In this document: piece by piece, positions 929 through 17,048 of the stretch
How positions within the stretch are numbered: position 1 is the stretch's first letter
How the letters are laid out: every line of letters starts with the position of its first letter
Origin: Bifidobacterium breve
GTDB taxonomy: Bacteria; Actinomycetota; Actinomycetes; Nanopelagicales; Nanopelagicaceae
Direction of reading: 5' to 3'
Assembly (NCBI GenBank): GCA_945890205.1
Contig: CAMDCL010000002.1
Coordinates: forward strand, 1 to 64,000
Length of the DNA stretch: 64,000 nt
The notes under the pieces: generated by a model
Told to the model about the DNA's origin: nothing
What the model saw: the letters and a program-made list of their open reading frames with translations, nothing else
Databases searched by the model: none
Made by a program: the position numbers and the translations under genes

Positions 929-938
929 GAGTACGTTG

Positions 939-1056
939 TTTTCGGGGTCGATGTAATTTCGAACCGGCGGTTAAAGTCCGCGACCCGATACCTGCCAGGT
1001 ATCGGTTGACTCAGTGAAACTCTGAGACCGACGGTTAAAGTCCGGATGAGAGAAAA
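939..1056 (+). promoter_or_regulatory. FMN riboswitch (RFN element)
   Basis: Conserved aptamer blocks are present in order: TTCGGGGTCGATGTAATT, ACCGGCGGTTAAAGTCCGCGAC, the GATACCTGCCAGGTATC hairpin, GTGAAACTCTGAGACCGACGG and GTCCGGATGAGAGAA. It binds FMN and represses the ribD-ribE-ribBA-ribH operon. Together with the two flanking elements it explains the 302-nt gap before ribD. Confidence 0.95.
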
Positions 1057-1105
1057 CCAACAAAGGGTCGGCGCATGCCTACCCTCTTTGTGCATTTCTC
1101 TGCCA

Positions 1106-10485: not shown

Positions 10486-10561
10486 TATTGAAAAGTACTG
10501 TAAGGTTTTGATTCAAGCAACAAATGCTGTATTTCCTGTGATTGTTCAGAGAGGTGGCGAA

Positions 10562-11140
10562 ATGCCAAGGATTCAAACCCCTGATTTAGCCTCTCATCGT
10601 GATTGGCGAAGAAATCAACTCATTGAAGCGGCGGCAAGTATCGCCCTTGAATCTGGTGGTGCAGCAATATCTGTTGCTGCAGTTGCACAGCGTGCCGGCC
10701 TGTCGCGTACATCTGTCTACGAGTACTTCGGCAGCGGCTCTGAATTAGTTGCTGATTTAGTAATTGATGAACTCAATAGCTTTGCTACAACTTTAAACAC
10801 CGCAGTTTCTGGGTGTGCTGATGCTCAATGCATAGTCTCCTGCTGGATACGAGGAGCGTTGACCTACATCGCAGATGGCCGACACTTATTAGCTAAAGCG
10901 CTTAACTCAGCTGCTAAGCCTCAATCTCGCTCACATCAGATCGGTATGGCACACCGAGCGTTGATGTCACCTTTGATCAAGGCTGTAGAAGAGCTGGGAG
11001 TAAAGGATTCGCAGCGCGCACTCATCTTTATTCAAGCAATTACAGATGCATCGACAAAGAGAATTGAATCAGGCCACGATGCTGAAAGTGAGATCGCTTA
11101 TGCGACCGCCTTCTGCATCAATGGCCTGATTTCAGGTTAA
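10562..11140 (+). CDS. TetR family transcriptional regulator
   Basis: 192 residues. I use the ATG at 10562, not the TTG at 10508 of the track, because AGAGGTGG lies just upstream and the first 18 codons look unlike the family. The N-terminal helix-turn-helix is clear: RRNQLIEAAASIALESGG, then ISVAAVAQRAGLSRTSVYEYFGS (about 36-58). The C-terminal ligand-binding part is not diagnostic. It is divergent from dedA with 76 nt between, so it may regulate dedA or itself; no convincing operator palindrome was found. It ends 1 nt from the convergent secreted-protein gene. Confidence 0.85.
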   Translation: MPRIQTPDLASHRDWRRNQLIEAAASIALESGGAAISVAAVAQRAGLSRTSVYEYFGSGSELVADLVIDELNSFATTLNTAVSGCADAQCIVSCWIRGALTYIADGRHLLAKALNSAAKPQSRSHQIGMAHRALMSPLIKAVEELGVKDSQRALIFIQAITDASTKRIESGHDAESEIAYATAFCINGLISG

Positions 11141-11141
11141 A

Positions 11142-12098
11142 TTAACGACCAGTTACAAATAGTTTTGTCTTTAAACCTTCATATAGAGTTTTTCTGCTAG
11201 GTGCCGTTACATCAATCTCACACTTTCCGCGACGAACAGTAAGAACTGAGCGAACAACAGAACAAGCCCCCACAGCCTTGTACTTAACCCGCTCACCAAA
11301 GTTACTAGTCAAGGGCAAGTTGCTCTTACTGAAAGCTTTAAGTGATTCAGGCAATGTAAAGGTATCTATTGTTTGAACTCCAAGAGTAAGGCGAATCGGC
11401 AGGATCACCGTAACTGGAGCAGAGTTTGCATTGCCCGCACTTGTTACAGAGATCGCACACTCACCCGTTCCGGCAAGGGGCAAAATTTGCAGTCCATTGA
11501 GAGAACAGGATGGAGCTAGTGAGCGGTAGCTCAAAGGTGCGCCGTTTTTCGAGGTCGCAGCAACGGTGGATAGTTGTCGATAGCTCAGGGTAGCTGGTGT
11601 TCTTGTAGTGACGGCAACACCATTGATCGTCGCAGTGACCTCATCTGCTGGCAGGGTTGTTGTTCCTGCAACAGCTGCCTTGAAGCTCAGAGGAATAAAC
11701 TGATCCTCCGAAAAGTCAGATGCAACGGTGTGATCAAAGCGCATAAAGATGCCGCACTTTGAAACTGTGCAATCGACGGTTGTGCTACCTACAACAAATG
11801 ATCCAGTGGGCTTAAAGGTAATTGCAGCAGTCGGCAAAAATGATGCACCACGTTGTGTGGAGATCCATAGCTCTACCGCCTTGTTACACAAGGCAGAACG
11901 AGTACCAGCTGGAGCTTCTACACATTGTTGAATGTATAAGCCACCCTTAGATGGAACATTTGTGAGCGAAAGATTGATTGTTGCATTTTGAAAATCAAGG
12001 TTGGTTAGAGGGCCGCCAACAAACTTGGTTTCTGCTGCCTGTGCTGAAACCGGAGTCATTAACGCTGCGATCAATGCAACAAGAACTAGCTTCTTCAT
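11142..12098 (-). CDS. Secreted neocarzinostatin-like protein, large paralog
   Basis: 318 residues from the ATG at 12098, chosen because it forms an ATGA overlap with the upstream gene; the track starts 4 codons earlier. A signal peptide (KKLVLVALIAALMTPVSAQAAE) is clear. The first half shares a domain with the neighbouring 161-aa protein: YIQQC...C, WIS, then DCTVSKCGIFMRFDHT and SEDQFIPLSF. The paired cysteines, including C-x4-C, resemble the two disulfides of the neocarzinostatin beta-sandwich fold. The second half is a separate beta-rich region with three further cysteines (SCSLNG, GECAI, ACSVV, KCEID). Function unknown; the divergent importer suggests ligand capture at the cell surface. 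Confidence 0.6.
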   Translation of the reverse strand: MKKLVLVALIAALMTPVSAQAAETKFVGGPLTNLDFQNATINLSLTNVPSKGGLYIQQCVEAPAGTRSALCNKAVELWISTQRGASFLPTAAITFKPTGSFVVGSTTVDCTVSKCGIFMRFDHTVASDFSEDQFIPLSFKAAVAGTTTLPADEVTATINGVAVTTRTPATLSYRQLSTVAATSKNGAPLSYRSLAPSCSLNGLQILPLAGTGECAISVTSAGNANSAPVTVILPIRLTLGVQTIDTFTLPESLKAFSKSNLPLTSNFGERVKYKAVGACSVVRSVLTVRRGKCEIDVTAPSRKTLYEGLKTKLFVTGR

Positions 12099-12580
12099 TT
12101 TTCTCCCCATTTGACGATTATTGGAATAAATAGATCTGAACTTCGATCATTACTGCGTAGATGATCTGCTCGTACGGTGATTGCGCACTTCACCTTGGTG
12201 CAATCAAACTTTCCGATCTTCTTTGAGATCTTTACCTTTTGAGTAAAGCGTCCACCGGGTAAAAACTCTTCAGTTAAACCGATTGCATAAGGTGGGGGAT
12301 TGGAGGAAATCCAAAATGATGATTCACCTAATCCAGCTTTATTGACTCCGCCACCACATGGGGTCGGAGCCTTGCCCTTTGGAGGTATTACGCAAAAGGC
12401 TAGATAAATACCGACCGTCTCATCAAAGTATCGGCCTTTTACAGTTACAGATGAGCCGCTCTTTACTGTGGTTTTTGAAACGGAAAGGATTTGATCTTGT
12501 GAACCCTTCACCGATGTTGCATAGGAGGAAGGCATGGAGGAGATAGCTAACGCCACCAGCAGCATCAATATCTTCCTCAT
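12095..12580 (-). CDS. Secreted neocarzinostatin-like protein, small paralog
   Basis: 161 residues from the ATG at 12580 (the track begins at a TTG two codons earlier). Signal peptide KILMLLVALAISSMPSSYATS. The mature protein is one domain: a LSVSKTTVKSGSSVTVKG strand pair, GIYLAFC...PC, SFWISSN, then FDCTKVKCAITVRADHL and DLFIPIIVKW. Spacing and cysteines match the large paralog next door and resemble neocarzinostatin-type proteins. It is first of the two-gene unit; TAGAGT lies 6 nt before the ATG. It is divergent from a heme/cobalamin-type ABC importer, so a hemophore-like role is a reasonable but unproven idea. Confidence 0.6.
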   Translation of the reverse strand: MRKILMLLVALAISSMPSSYATSVKGSQDQILSVSKTTVKSGSSVTVKGRYFDETVGIYLAFCVIPPKGKAPTPCGGGVNKAGLGESSFWISSNPPPYAIGLTEEFLPGGRFTQKVKISKKIGKFDCTKVKCAITVRADHLRSNDRSSDLFIPIIVKWGEK

Positions 12581-12586
12581 GGCCAA

Positions 12587-12592
12587 ACTCTA
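12587..12592 (-). promoter_or_regulatory. -10 element (TAGAGT) of the secreted-protein pair
   Basis: TAGAGTTTGGCCATG places the hexamer 6 nt before the start codon. Nearly the same 15 nt (TAGAGTTTGGCTATG) precedes psuG. No Shine-Dalgarno sequence, so the transcript is probably leaderless. Confidence 0.5.
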
Positions 12593-12664
12593 ATTTGAAG
12601 CCTTTGAAGCCTTATCCGACAGGACACAAAGAACTGTCGTGAAAAGTTTTGGCACACTAGCCTC

Positions 12665-13567
12665 GTGAGAAAATTGTTAATAATCGCGCTTGCGATTGCA
12701 CTTTCTGGGTGTTCGCAAAGCCCAGATGCAAGATCTATAACAATTTCTCAGGATCAAGTGAGATCGATTTCACTTTCAACCTCGGGATCTTTTACCGCAT
12801 CCCGCGTGGTTGTTTTGGCTAACGGTGTTGCCGAGATCATGCAATCTCTCAATGCGCAATCCATCATCGTCGGTCGAGATATCTCAAGTAGCGAGGATTC
12901 GCTATCACAGATCCCAATCGTTACCTCTGGCCATCAAGTTCTTGCAGAAAAGGTAATCGCACTTAAGCCCGATCTTGTAATTATTGATGCATCGACCGGC
13001 CCACAATCTGCAATTGATCTGATCCGTTCGAGTGGAGTTACAGTTGTGAAAACTCCAGAAAGCTGGAGGCTCGGTGATATTTCGGTAAAGGTGCGGGCTG
13101 TGGCAGCTGCGATAGGTGCCCAGTCACAGGCGGAGCAGTTGGTGCAACAGATTGACCAATCCTTAGTGACATCACAACTTTCATGGTCTCCACATGTTGC
13201 CTTTTTATATCTACGTGGAACATCATCTGTGTATCTCATTGGTGGTTCTGGTTCAGGTGCTGACTCATTGTTAGCGGCGTTAGGTGCGATTGATGTTGGA
13301 GCCAAAGAATTAGATCGTCCCTTTAATGCATTAACCGCTGAATCTCTTGCACAGCTCAACCCTGATGTCATTATGGTGATGAGCAAGGGTCTTGAATCTG
13401 TAGGAGGGGTAAAGGGTTTACTCAAACTTCCGGGTGTTGCTCAAACCAAGGCTGGAAAAAATTCTGCGATTATCGATGTAGATGACTCGTTACTGCTCTC
13501 CTTTGGCACCAGAACCCCATCATTACTACAAGTACTAGCAAAGGCGCTTGAGCAGGTGAGAGGATGA
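12665..13567 (+). CDS. ABC importer substrate-binding lipoprotein (heme or cobalamin type)
   Basis: 300 residues, GTG start. The N terminus is a lipoprotein signal (LLIIALAIALSGC, lipobox LSGC, Cys about 16), so it is membrane-anchored. The rest is a BtuF/HmuT-like class III binding protein: VVLANGVAEIMQSL, VGRDISSSEDSLSQIP, LKPDLVIID and a C-terminal LNPDVIMVMSKG lobe. The STGPQSAIDL stretch is closer to HmuT-like heme binders than to siderophore binders. B12 is a serious alternative, because the cell uses a B12-dependent NrdJ. First of a three-gene importer unit with ATGA overlaps. Confidence 0.75.
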   Translation: MRKLLIIALAIALSGCSQSPDARSITISQDQVRSISLSTSGSFTASRVVVLANGVAEIMQSLNAQSIIVGRDISSSEDSLSQIPIVTSGHQVLAEKVIALKPDLVIIDASTGPQSAIDLIRSSGVTVVKTPESWRLGDISVKVRAVAAAIGAQSQAEQLVQQIDQSLVTSQLSWSPHVAFLYLRGTSSVYLIGGSGSGADSLLAALGAIDVGAKELDRPFNALTAESLAQLNPDVIMVMSKGLESVGGVKGLLKLPGVAQTKAGKNSAIIDVDDSLLLSFGTRTPSLLQVLAKALEQVRG

Positions 13568-14535
13568 AAAAGTCCCTCCCATTCATATTTCTGAGCTGTG
13601 CATTTTTCATCTCACTATCTATTGGTGCAACCCAGATCGCTGATTTTTGGACCGCCTTAATAAACCCCGGAAGCAATGAAATCCTGTGGCAGATAAGGGT
13701 TCCACGTGTCACCGCCGCTGTGATCGTGGGCGCTGCCTTAGGTGTTGCAGGTTTGTTAGCTCAAGGCGCGTGCAACAACGCGGTTGCAGAGCCGGCCATT
13801 CTTGGAACATCGGCGGGCGCAGCATTTGGCGCGGTTCTTGCCATTAGCGTGGGTTTGGTTGAGGTGGGAACAGTTGGTGCGATTTTCTGTGGAACCTTAG
13901 GCGCCTTACTTGCAACCTCGCTGACATTTAAGTTAGCAGCTTTGAGAGGAGCTTTGTCCTCCTTTACTTTAATCATTGTCGGAATCGCAGTCTCTGCAAT
14001 CTTTACCTCATTTGTCGGAATTGCATCTGCAATGGCCTCAAGGGCCGAAGCTCGATCAATATCATTTTGGAGCTTTGGTTCGTTGGCGTTGATTACCTCT
14101 GAAAATCTCATCGGAGTAAGTATCACAACCACTATTGGTGTTGCTATCGCATGGAGGATCGCACCATTCTTGGATCGATTATCGCTAGGGGATGCAACAG
14201 CCTTTCACCTAGGTACTGATGTTTCCAGGATTCGATTATTGGCATTAATTGGCCTATCTATCGCTGCAGGTGGTGCGGTTAGTACAGTCGGATCAATCGC
14301 CTTTATTGGATTGGCAGCACCGCATATTGCACGTTTTATTTATGGGCCATCACATCGACAATTAGTTGTCCATAGCGCTGTGATCGGTGCTTTGATTGTT
14401 GTTGTGGCAGACACTGTGTCTCGAACAATTGCACAACCCAATGAGCTTCCTATTGGCCTAGCAACGGCTTTATTGGGTGCTCCAGTTTTGATCGCACTTG
14501 TTGCTGTAAAGAACAATGTCTGGAGAACGCAATGA
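13564..14535 (+). CDS. FecCD-type ABC importer permease
   Basis: 323 residues with about nine or ten hydrophobic helices, the usual size for the FecCD/BtuC/HmuU family. Family signatures are LWQIRVPRVTAAVIVGAALGVAGLLAQ (about 37-63), LGTSAGAAFGAVLAI, and near the end STVGSIAFIGLAAPHIARFIYGPSHR, the cytoplasmic loop that couples to the ATPase. It forms the membrane channel for heme, cobalamin or a siderophore. It overlaps both neighbours by 4 nt, so subunits are likely made in step. Confidence 0.85.
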   Translation: MKKSLPFIFLSCAFFISLSIGATQIADFWTALINPGSNEILWQIRVPRVTAAVIVGAALGVAGLLAQGACNNAVAEPAILGTSAGAAFGAVLAISVGLVEVGTVGAIFCGTLGALLATSLTFKLAALRGALSSFTLIIVGIAVSAIFTSFVGIASAMASRAEARSISFWSFGSLALITSENLIGVSITTTIGVAIAWRIAPFLDRLSLGDATAFHLGTDVSRIRLLALIGLSIAAGGAVSTVGSIAFIGLAAPHIARFIYGPSHRQLVVHSAVIGALIVVVADTVSRTIAQPNELPIGLATALLGAPVLIALVAVKNNVWRTQ

Positions 14536-15122
14536 TCACTATTGATGAAATCACCATCATCCGCGACGGTCGCGAGATAATTTATGATTACTCTGAACAA
14601 ATTCCTGCCGGATCAATCACAGTTATTGTTGGGCCCAATGGCAGCGGAAAATCCACCTTATTAGCCGCTATTGCAGGAGATATCGCACCTGACAAGGGAA
14701 CAATTACGATTGATGATCATCATCCGATATTGACTTCGGCTAGTACCTTGGCTGGTATTCGTGCCATGGCGGTTCAAAATCAAAGCTTTGTCCTGGGTTT
14801 TACCGTCCGCGAGGTAGTTGAAATGGGCGGTAACTCAGCTGAAGTGTTAGAGGCGTTAGAGCTCAGTGAACTAGCTGATCGCTTAGTGACGACTTTGTCT
14901 GGGGGAGAAGCCCAACGGGTTGCGATTGCTCAAGCCATTGCCCAAGGTACTCCGGTCTTGCTATTAGATGAACCTCTTGCATCGCAGGATATTTATTCTC
15001 GTCGAAAGATCATCGAGTTATTACAGCAGCGTGCAGAAAGTGGAACTACCGTTGTGGTCGTGGCTCATAGTTCAGAAACAGAGTTAACGTGGGCCGATAA
15101 GGTTGTTAACCAGTTCCACTAA
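14532..15122 (+). CDS. ABC importer ATPase, unusually short
   Basis: 196 residues, against about 250 for BtuD/HmuV-type ATPases. Every catalytic motif is present: Walker A GPNGSGKST (about 34-42), Q-loop AVQNQ, signature LSGGEAQRVAIAQA, Walker B VLLLDEPLASQD and switch histidine VVAHSSE. What is missing is part of the helical subdomain between Q-loop and signature and the C-terminal tail after the H-loop. It looks like trimming without loss of function. It follows the permease with an ATGA overlap, and its last 39 nt overlap the convergent NUDIX gene. Confidence 0.82.
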   Translation: MITIDEITIIRDGREIIYDYSEQIPAGSITVIVGPNGSGKSTLLAAIAGDIAPDKGTITIDDHHPILTSASTLAGIRAMAVQNQSFVLGFTVREVVEMGGNSAEVLEALELSELADRLVTTLSGGEAQRVAIAQAIAQGTPVLLLDEPLASQDIYSRRKIIELLQQRAESGTTVVVVAHSSETELTWADKVVNQFH

Positions 15123-15551
15123 TTGCGGCCAGGAGTTTCTAAAGCTGGGATGCAAAGGCAGTTGCTCAACCTTTTCAATATCCACCCAACGAACCTCGTG
15201 GGATTCATCATTGACCTCGTGGGCAATTAATCCATCTGCTGCACGTGCAATAACTGTTTCATACCGCCAATCACCATGGTCATCGATAAAGGTGTACAGC
15301 GGTGTTAGTAAATCTGTATCGATCCCAGTCTCCTCAACCGCTTCGCGGAAGGCACCTTCAATAGTTGATTCATGGGAATCCCGCGCACCGCCTGGGATGC
15401 CCCAGGTATCTCCGTTATGAACCCAGGGCGCACGATGTTGTAACAAAATTTGGTTGCCACGGATAATCAATACCCCGGCGGCACCGTTAAGACCCCAATG
15501 CTTATTACCGCAGGCGCATGTGACCCAACCATCACCATCGCGCACCGCCAT
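15084..15551 (-). CDS. NUDIX hydrolase
   Basis: 155 residues. The NUDIX box GARDSHESTIEGAFREAVEETGI fits G-x5-E-x7-REUxEExGU exactly. An N-terminal VTCACGNKHWGLNGAAG segment with two cysteines precedes it, as in actinobacterial NUDIX proteins that keep a half zinc ribbon. It hydrolyses a nucleoside diphosphate linked to another moiety; the substrate cannot be told from sequence. It overlaps the ABC ATPase gene by 39 nt at its 3' end and is divergent from the PKD gene. A CAGGCT hexamer 6 nt before the ATG may be its promoter. Confidence 0.88.
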   Translation of the reverse strand: MAVRDGDGWVTCACGNKHWGLNGAAGVLIIRGNQILLQHRAPWVHNGDTWGIPGGARDSHESTIEGAFREAVEETGIDTDLLTPLYTFIDDHGDWRYETVIARAADGLIAHEVNDESHEVRWVDIEKVEQLPLHPSFRNSWPQLVELVNNLIGPR

Positions 15552-15618
15552 GTTCGTAGCCTGTCACAACTATCCACAGTTTGCCCTGCGATCGCCCTGG
15601 CGGTCTGCGGGGCAACTT

Positions 15619-16362
15619 ATGGTGCCGCACATGGTCGCCATCATTGTGATATTTGCACTTATTTTTTCTACAACTACACCAGCCTCTGCCGATGAGTGTG
15701 CAGAAAAGGCGTGTATCAATGTCTACACCGATAACAATCAAATCATTATCGAAGCTCGCAAAGGCAGCAGCAGTGTTAAGAAAACCATCACTCAGGCCCC
15801 CAAGAAACCCGCTGTAAAGCCCACACCAAAGCCCACTGTTAAGCCCTTATTTTTTCCACCAACAACTTCTAAACCGGTTGTAAAGAGACCAACTGTAAAA
15901 CGCACCTATAAACCACGGGTCAAAAAGGCCACAACCAAGGTCAATCTCAGTGATCGTTTAACCAAGCTAGTTCCTACCGCAGGTGTTGCTTATCAACCCG
16001 AGTTCGAGCCATTAATAAATGTGCCGGTGTATTTCTGGTGCGACCTTCCATCCATATTTCACAGCCGGGTAGACATTATTGGCGAGGTCGTTGATGTGAC
16101 CTTGCGCCCCTCATTTACATGGAGCTTTGGCGATGGCTCTTTTTATTCGACAACTGAAAATGGGGCTCCATATCCCAATGGATCGATTCGTCACACCTAT
16201 TCACGATCAGGCACCTATGTCATCACCTTGCTTACAACCTGGAATGGCAGTTACACCCATAACGCCCAAGTAAGAGCGGTTAGCGGAACGGTAAAGAAGC
16301 TCTCTTTTTCACAAGTAACAGTTGTTCAGGCACCCACCCACTTCATCACACCCAAAGGATAA
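15619..16362 (+). CDS. Secreted PKD-domain protein
   Basis: 247 residues from the ATG at 15619. The track start (15454) would run through the NUDIX gene, whereas the ATG at 15619 (or 15631) gives a good signal peptide (VAIIVIFALIFSTTTPASADE) and has GCGGGGC upstream. The mature protein has a charged, proline- and lysine-rich linker (repeats like KPTPKPTVKP and KRPTVKRTYKPRVKK, about 50-110), then a PKD-like beta-sandwich with FTWSFGDGS and HTYSRSGTYVITL. PKD domains mediate surface or protein contacts. It is followed 5 nt later by the DUF4192 gene. Specific role unknown. Confidence 0.65.
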   Translation: MVPHMVAIIVIFALIFSTTTPASADECAEKACINVYTDNNQIIIEARKGSSSVKKTITQAPKKPAVKPTPKPTVKPLFFPPTTSKPVVKRPTVKRTYKPRVKKATTKVNLSDRLTKLVPTAGVAYQPEFEPLINVPVYFWCDLPSIFHSRVDIIGEVVDVTLRPSFTWSFGDGSFYSTTENGAPYPNGSIRHTYSRSGTYVITLLTTWNGSYTHNAQVRAVSGTVKKLSFSQVTVVQAPTHFITPKG

Positions 16363-16932: not shown

Positions 16933-17030
16933 GTTCACGAGTCCTATGTATTAGCCCCGGCTTAGTAGGCGGCAACCCTCCACCGCGGCGGGGTGCTCCG
17001 GGTGACGAACAGGTCGCTACGGCGACAAGC
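16933..17030 (+). promoter_or_regulatory. SAM-IV riboswitch
   Basis: The conserved core AGCCCCGGCTTAGTAGGCGGCAACCCTCC, ACCGCGGCGGGGTGCTCCGGGTGA and a following GACGAACAGGTC match the actinobacterial SAM-IV aptamer. The GCAACCCTCC and GGGTGCTCCGGGTGA segments form the SAM-binding core and pseudoknot. It lies directly before metX and should turn methionine synthesis down when S-adenosylmethionine is plentiful. Confidence 0.88.
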
Positions 17031-17048
17031 GCAGGTGAAGGATTTCAA

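Follow-up and report, generated by a model that had tools for sequence, protein, structure and literature searches.

Two kinds of described system stand closest to the locus reported here. The first is the neocarzinostatin family (PF00960), comprising the apoproteins of macromomycin, neocarzinostatin, C-1027 and kedarcidin, which are small secreted beta-sandwich proteins with a ligand cleft; to our knowledge this fold is known solely as an antibiotic carrier. The second is the HtaA/HtaB-HmuTUV system of Corynebacterium, in which secreted or surface beta-sandwich proteins, HtaA with its CR domains (PF04213) among them, are encoded beside a heme importer. Extracellular capture of heme and its hand-over to an importer, the role we propose below, is also that of NEAT-domain (Isd) proteins and of the HasA/HmuY hemophores, which differ in fold from the proteins considered here and belong to systems known from other phyla (PMC12494546).

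The question of heme capture is a live one for freshwater actinobacteria. The acI bacteria require heme (PMC11139205), and Nanopelagicales have no known pathway for making heme (PMC7527133). In 60% of bacteria naturally auxotrophic for heme, no known heme receptor was detected, so that unknown heme receptors are possible (PMC11139205), and for the freshwater actinobacteria evidence is still sought of secreted hemophores or of binding to heme receptors (PMC7527133).

We analysed a 64,000-nucleotide stretch of DNA (hereafter the window; G000:C2) from a streamlined freshwater actinobacterium of the Ca. Planktophila group, whose closest named relatives are Ca. Planktophila and other Nanopelagicales. 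It encodes two adjacent proteins, here called NcsA and NcsB, divergent from an importer of the HmuTUV type. We consider it probable that NcsA and NcsB are a secreted heme-capture pair (hemophore or heme receptor) built on a neocarzinostatin beta-sandwich and serving HmuTUV in a heme auxotroph, counting against this reading that the 1.27-Mb assembly containing the window is only 83% complete.

The Ncs pair and its predicted fold

NcsA (12095..12580, minus strand) is a secreted single-domain protein of 161 residues when read from the ATG at 12580. Its listed open reading frame opens at a TTG at 12586 and ends at 12095, but the ATG is the likelier start because M3 is nearly invariant among homologues. 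NcsB (11142..12098, minus strand) has an N-terminal neocarzinostatin-like domain followed by two C-terminal Ig-like domains; it more likely starts from the ATG at 12098, where start codon and NcsA stop overlap as ATGA, with GGGGAG shortly upstream. The reading frames are real, Sec signal peptides are predicted by eye in both products, and the two are paralogues (33% identity over 103 aa, E=6e-11), in agreement with the original prediction of two adjacent exported proteins with a common domain.

The sequence features on which that prediction drew are also present. Both proteins have the two cysteine pairs, one of them a C-x4-C (DCTKVKC in one paralogue, DCTVSKC in the other), and C65, C77, C129 and C134 are invariant in an alignment of 60 NcsA homologues from public genomes (alignment A2; NcsB was aligned separately, as A3). 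These cysteines would form two disulfides, the second as C-x4-C. The R-x-DH...FIP ending holds up as well: D141, H142, D151 and P155 are invariant among the same 60 homologues and R139 is conserved in at least 90%. Over a wider set of 192 Nanopelagicales and 77 distant Ncs domains, the conserved positions are Y61, W92, C129, C134, D141, H142 and D151. A Tyr also occupies the Y61 position in enediyne apoproteins, so the role of Y61 may be structural, which we offer as a lead only. H142 is an attractive candidate ligand; we know of no enediyne apoprotein with the D-H pair. This pair has been lost in the NcsB homologues of another family (f34), which makes NcsA the likelier heme carrier and NcsB its partner.

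Sequence evidence for the fold is weak when taken alone. Against PF00960, with a gathering cut-off of 25 bits, NcsB scored 10.3 bits (E=0.73) and NcsA gave no match; against the enediyne chromoprotein model NF040680, with an equivalog cut-off of 86 bits, the two proteins scored 21.7 and 16.2 bits (E=1.4e-4 for NcsB and 0.007 for NcsA). Neither matched the HtaA domain (PF04213). Predicted structures were more informative. An AlphaFold2 model of NcsA (alignment A2 as input; pLDDT 84, pTM 0.78) was compared by Foldseek with 350,542 PDB chains, and the best-ranked matches were macromomycin, neocarzinostatin, C-1027 and kedarcidin: macromomycin (2mcm) came first (E=1e-4, probability 1.00, TM to target 0.71), and neocarzinostatin (1nco), C-1027 (1j48) and apokedarcidin also matched with probability 1.00. 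In the model of NcsB (alignment A3 as input; pLDDT 90.5, pTM 0.58) the N-terminal domain aligns with neocarzinostatin (2cbq, TM to target 0.74) and the remainder with generic Ig-domain chains. The predicted structures of NcsA and of the NcsB N-domain are thus Ig-like beta-sandwiches of the chromoprotein type, and the original assignment of a neocarzinostatin layout is borne out at this level.

With the PF00960 apoproteins, then, the pair shares the predicted fold, two disulfide positions and the character of small, exported beta-sandwich proteins that have a cleft for a ligand. Unlike them, NcsA and NcsB are linked to heme uptake, score below the curated cut-off of the family, have an invariant D-H motif after the second cysteine pair and have no enediyne gene nearby; the adjoining genes encode the importer, a TetR regulator, DinG, DedA, Nudix and PKD proteins. 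A function as enediyne apoproteins can be ruled out, given an equivalog score so far under the cut-off and the lack of adjacent enediyne genes.

One sequence relative has been solved as a structure, ThiX of C. glutamicum (7qhm chain M; profile E=2.5e-7 for NcsA and 1e-7 for NcsB). Like NcsA and NcsB it is secreted and retains the motif, as DCTTQAC...DH; unlike them it is a lipoprotein attached to the respiratory supercomplex, in whose structure the soluble domain of ThiX is not resolved, and no activity of ThiX is known (PMC8795186). A heme-related role is conceivable for this otherwise unexplained supercomplex lipoprotein.

Conservation of the gene block and its putative operator

The importer genes run divergently from the Ncs pair and encode an HmuT-type heme-binding lipoprotein (SBP; 12665..13567, plus strand; PF01497, E=6.8e-28), an HmuU-type FecCD permease (13564..14535, plus strand; PF01032, E=7.7e-77), the only FecCD permease found in the assembly, and an HmuV-type ATPase (14532..15122, plus strand; PF00005, E=6.5e-31). 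Pfam thereby substantiates all three components of the lipoprotein, permease and ATPase set that had been predicted. On the far side of NcsB, and converging on it, lies the gene for a TetR-family protein (10508..11140, plus strand; PF00440, E=1.1e-7), which travels with the unit and is its probable regulator.

NcsA is present in 23 of 61 genomes of the genus and the SBP in the same 23, with none having only one of the two. In a genome scan the SBP was divergently adjacent in 77 of 80 NcsA loci, the other three ending at a contig or locus edge. The block TetR-NcsB-NcsA<>SBP-FecCD-ABC is kept where its DinG, MetX and RpoD flanks are gone (loci L115 and L122-L134) and also in family f34, the TetR gene included, and so behaves as a single unit; the same recurrence, in these loci and in other families, rules out that gene order has simply been retained because rearrangement is slow. 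Beside the cluster, a secreted PKD-domain protein (15454-16362, plus strand) is likewise kept in the genus. Elsewhere in the window an Rfam scan placed two riboswitches, on the sites 934-1061 (+) and 16933-17037 (+), one an FMN and one a SAM-IV riboswitch; the latter lies immediately 5' of a MetX-like (homoserine acetyltransferase) gene.

Across the class, Ncs-like genes were detected in 73 of 395 genomes and 26 of 123 genera. We examined 43 further neighbourhoods, 42 of them outside the family of the window, and found an HmuT-type gene within 5 kb in 36, a heme oxygenase in 17 and HtaA in 18, the last two labels being confirmed by Pfam in the examples checked. Of the seven loci without a nearby HmuT, L053 and L173 are truncated where their contig stops; the others, all three loci of family f19 together with L166 and L185, are true exceptions with Ncs-like genes and no importer nearby. 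Those of f19 (L054, L151, L152) encode paired Ncs-like proteins with no heme genes nearby; at L185:9037-9501 and L166:6730-8410 the neighbour is a TetR gene. The pairing of Ncs genes with the importer is not due to chance: it is kept in dozens of genomes and in several contexts. The predicted co-occurrence of gene pair and importer accordingly holds in every genus member with either, and in many other families.

We infer from this linkage, strongly, that the Ncs proteins and the importer have a common role, and less strongly that the Ncs proteins bind heme directly. They might instead belong to a heme-uptake system as Ig-like adaptors, contacting hemoproteins, the cell wall or HtaA/HmuT and bringing heme sources to HmuT. 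Ig-like beta-sandwiches often serve protein contacts, NcsB has two extra domains of this kind, and the HtaA proteins of three loci (L052, L053, L180) carry a Neocarzinostat domain placed between two heme-binding HtaA repeats, that of L180 scoring 26.1 bits, above the Pfam cut-off of 25. Such fusions also count in favour of the heme-capture reading preferred here. In loci L135 (8509-9450) and L144 (8448-9395) the place of NcsB is taken by another Ig-like domain, which resembles those inside HtaA proteins; in L135 it is fused to an OmpA-type domain expected to bind the cell wall, a further point in favour of adaptors. (HtaA itself, considered as the replacement in these two loci, proved to be the wrong identification.) However, in the Nanopelagicales, f28, f32 and f34 loci no HtaA was seen nearby, and so nothing else there looks able to take extracellular heme; moreover, the aromatic and charged positions that surround the Cys-x4-Cys loop do not vary, which is more suggestive of a site for a ligand than of a contact face free to change. 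On balance we regard a purely adaptor function as unlikely, if the most serious competitor to heme capture. In families f17 and f20, which also have HtaA, the Ncs protein might merely assist.

The divergent promoter region of the window contains a candidate operator dyad, CCGACA-N13-TGTCGT (12616..12640, no strand assigned), which is one mismatch from CCGACA-N13-TGTCGG and includes a perfect core, CGACAG-N11-CTGTCG (12617-12639), that occurs exactly once in the assembly. With up to two mismatches allowed, 59 of 78 loci contain the dyad, where shuffled sequences would be expected to give 0.7, and no other spacing exceeded 11; the motif was both found and counted on overlapping sequences, and related loci are not independent, with at least two duplicates in the set (L143/L164 and L144/L167). 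Its half-sites are conserved and its spacer is variable, as for a dimeric binding site. When 109 loci are divided by the presence of TetR, the motif occurs in 69 of 73 with the regulator (57 with N13 spacing, 12 with N3) versus 7 of 36 with none detected, a group in which some TetR genes may lie past the contig end. The N3 and N13 spacings differ by approximately one helical turn. N3 half-sites occur in the NcsA-SBP intergenic regions of L051, L135, L142-L144 and L160-L172, outside the main Planktophila group, and an N14 spacing in several Planktophila loci lacking TetR. The conserved dyad and the co-travelling TetR gene suggest joint control of both divergent operons.

Ligand of the importer and heme auxotrophy

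The original prediction left the importer as a heme/B12 type, of which the heme part stands and the B12 part does not. The three genes form a PF01497, PF01032 and PF00005 operon whose SBP is nearest to heme-binding HmuT: its best PDB match is HmuT of C. glutamicum (5az3, E=2.6e-42), and the next-ranked hits are mutants of HmuT and further proteins that bind heme. Among NCBIfam models HmuV scores best with PRK13548, a heme ABC transporter ATPase, reaching 157 bits of the 261 required. In C. glutamicum HmuT heme is held by the axial ligand Tyr240 with Arg242 hydrogen-bonding, and by His141 as second axial ligand (PMC4926363). The first two correspond to FLYLRGT in the window, where Y182 and R184 are invariant among 29 SBP homologues; the second axial His is missing, DASTGP standing for DHSIGP with Ala at this position. 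The H141A mutant of the C. glutamicum protein is still expressed chiefly as the holo form (PMC4926363).

HemE is missing in 60 of 61 genomes of the genus, with control genomes behaving as expected, and heme oxygenase in all 61. The likeness to HmuT, the invariant Tyr and Arg, the heme oxygenase and HtaA in the clusters of relatives and the heme auxotrophy of the genus together point to heme, not cobalamin, as the ligand. A role of the importer and the Ncs proteins in uptake of cobalamin or some other corrinoid is very improbable: BtuCDF and HmuTUV do constitute one transporter family, and auxotrophy for cobalamin is widespread in these waters (PMC12381374), but the BtuF model gives the SBP 30 bits against a cut-off of 234 and the Rfam scan found no cobalamin riboswitch in the window. 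Uptake of a siderophore or other iron chelate, with siderocalin-like, siderophore-binding Ncs proteins, is just as improbable, for while the FecCD family transports siderophores too and small aromatic molecules bind the neocarzinostatin cleft, the evidence against cobalamin applies here also, no siderophore genes adjoin the cluster and the organism, HemE being missing, needs heme itself.

The cluster is not the sole heme route in the genus. It is missing as a whole from 38 of the 61 genomes, and all but one of these are also heme auxotrophs by the absence of HemE, and so must use another route. They include G014, G015 and about 35 others; the genome of G015 is complete and has no FecCD permease at all. 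The sole genus member with HemE, G037, is without the cluster.

A proposed heme-capture role for the neocarzinostatin fold

Taking heme capture as the preferred reading, which supports the original suggestion of ligand-capturing proteins similar in role to hemophores, we hypothesize that the TetR regulator acts on the single operator dyad and so would control both operons, and that NcsA and NcsB, given their signal peptides, would be exported by Sec. The Ncs domain may hold heme in the cleft that enediyne apoproteins use for their chromophore, with H142, W92 and Y100 as candidate contacts; NcsA is the likelier carrier, and NcsB, with its two extra Ig-like domains, is probably a wall- or surface-associated partner. 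Heme would then be handed to the lipoprotein HmuT with its conserved Tyr/Arg ligand pair and imported by HmuUV. Unlike in Corynebacterium, heme is probably used intact, as a cofactor, because no heme oxygenase was found.

The importer is thus of the same type as in the HtaA/HtaB-HmuTUV system, with candidate capture proteins encoded beside it, and relatives even have both types of protein in one cluster; however, here the candidate capture proteins have the predicted neocarzinostatin fold rather than CR domains, and HtaA is missing from all 38 genus genomes searched for it. We found no report of heme binding by an Ncs domain, and no paper joining neocarzinostatin with HtaA or heme uptake, in the openly accessible literature. 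That a known importer is here served by a heme-capture component of a new type is a credible interpretation, and the component is more widely distributed than could be seen when the locus was first read. More tentatively, with the case for and against nearly in balance, the neocarzinostatin fold may join NEAT and HtaA/CR as a further heme-capture fold, so far overlooked, among Gram-positive bacteria; it would then serve in many families of actinobacteria, and the enediyne apoproteins would be a specialised branch of a family whose shared function is to carry heme or other hydrophobic ligands.

Ca. Planktophila and its relatives are among the most abundant bacteria of lakes and need external heme. 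The cluster is a candidate answer to the published question of how these auxotrophs capture it, and offers concrete candidate genes that are also present in a cultivated strain, IMCC25003 (L105). If heme capture is indeed their function, the neocarzinostatin fold would have a nutritional role.
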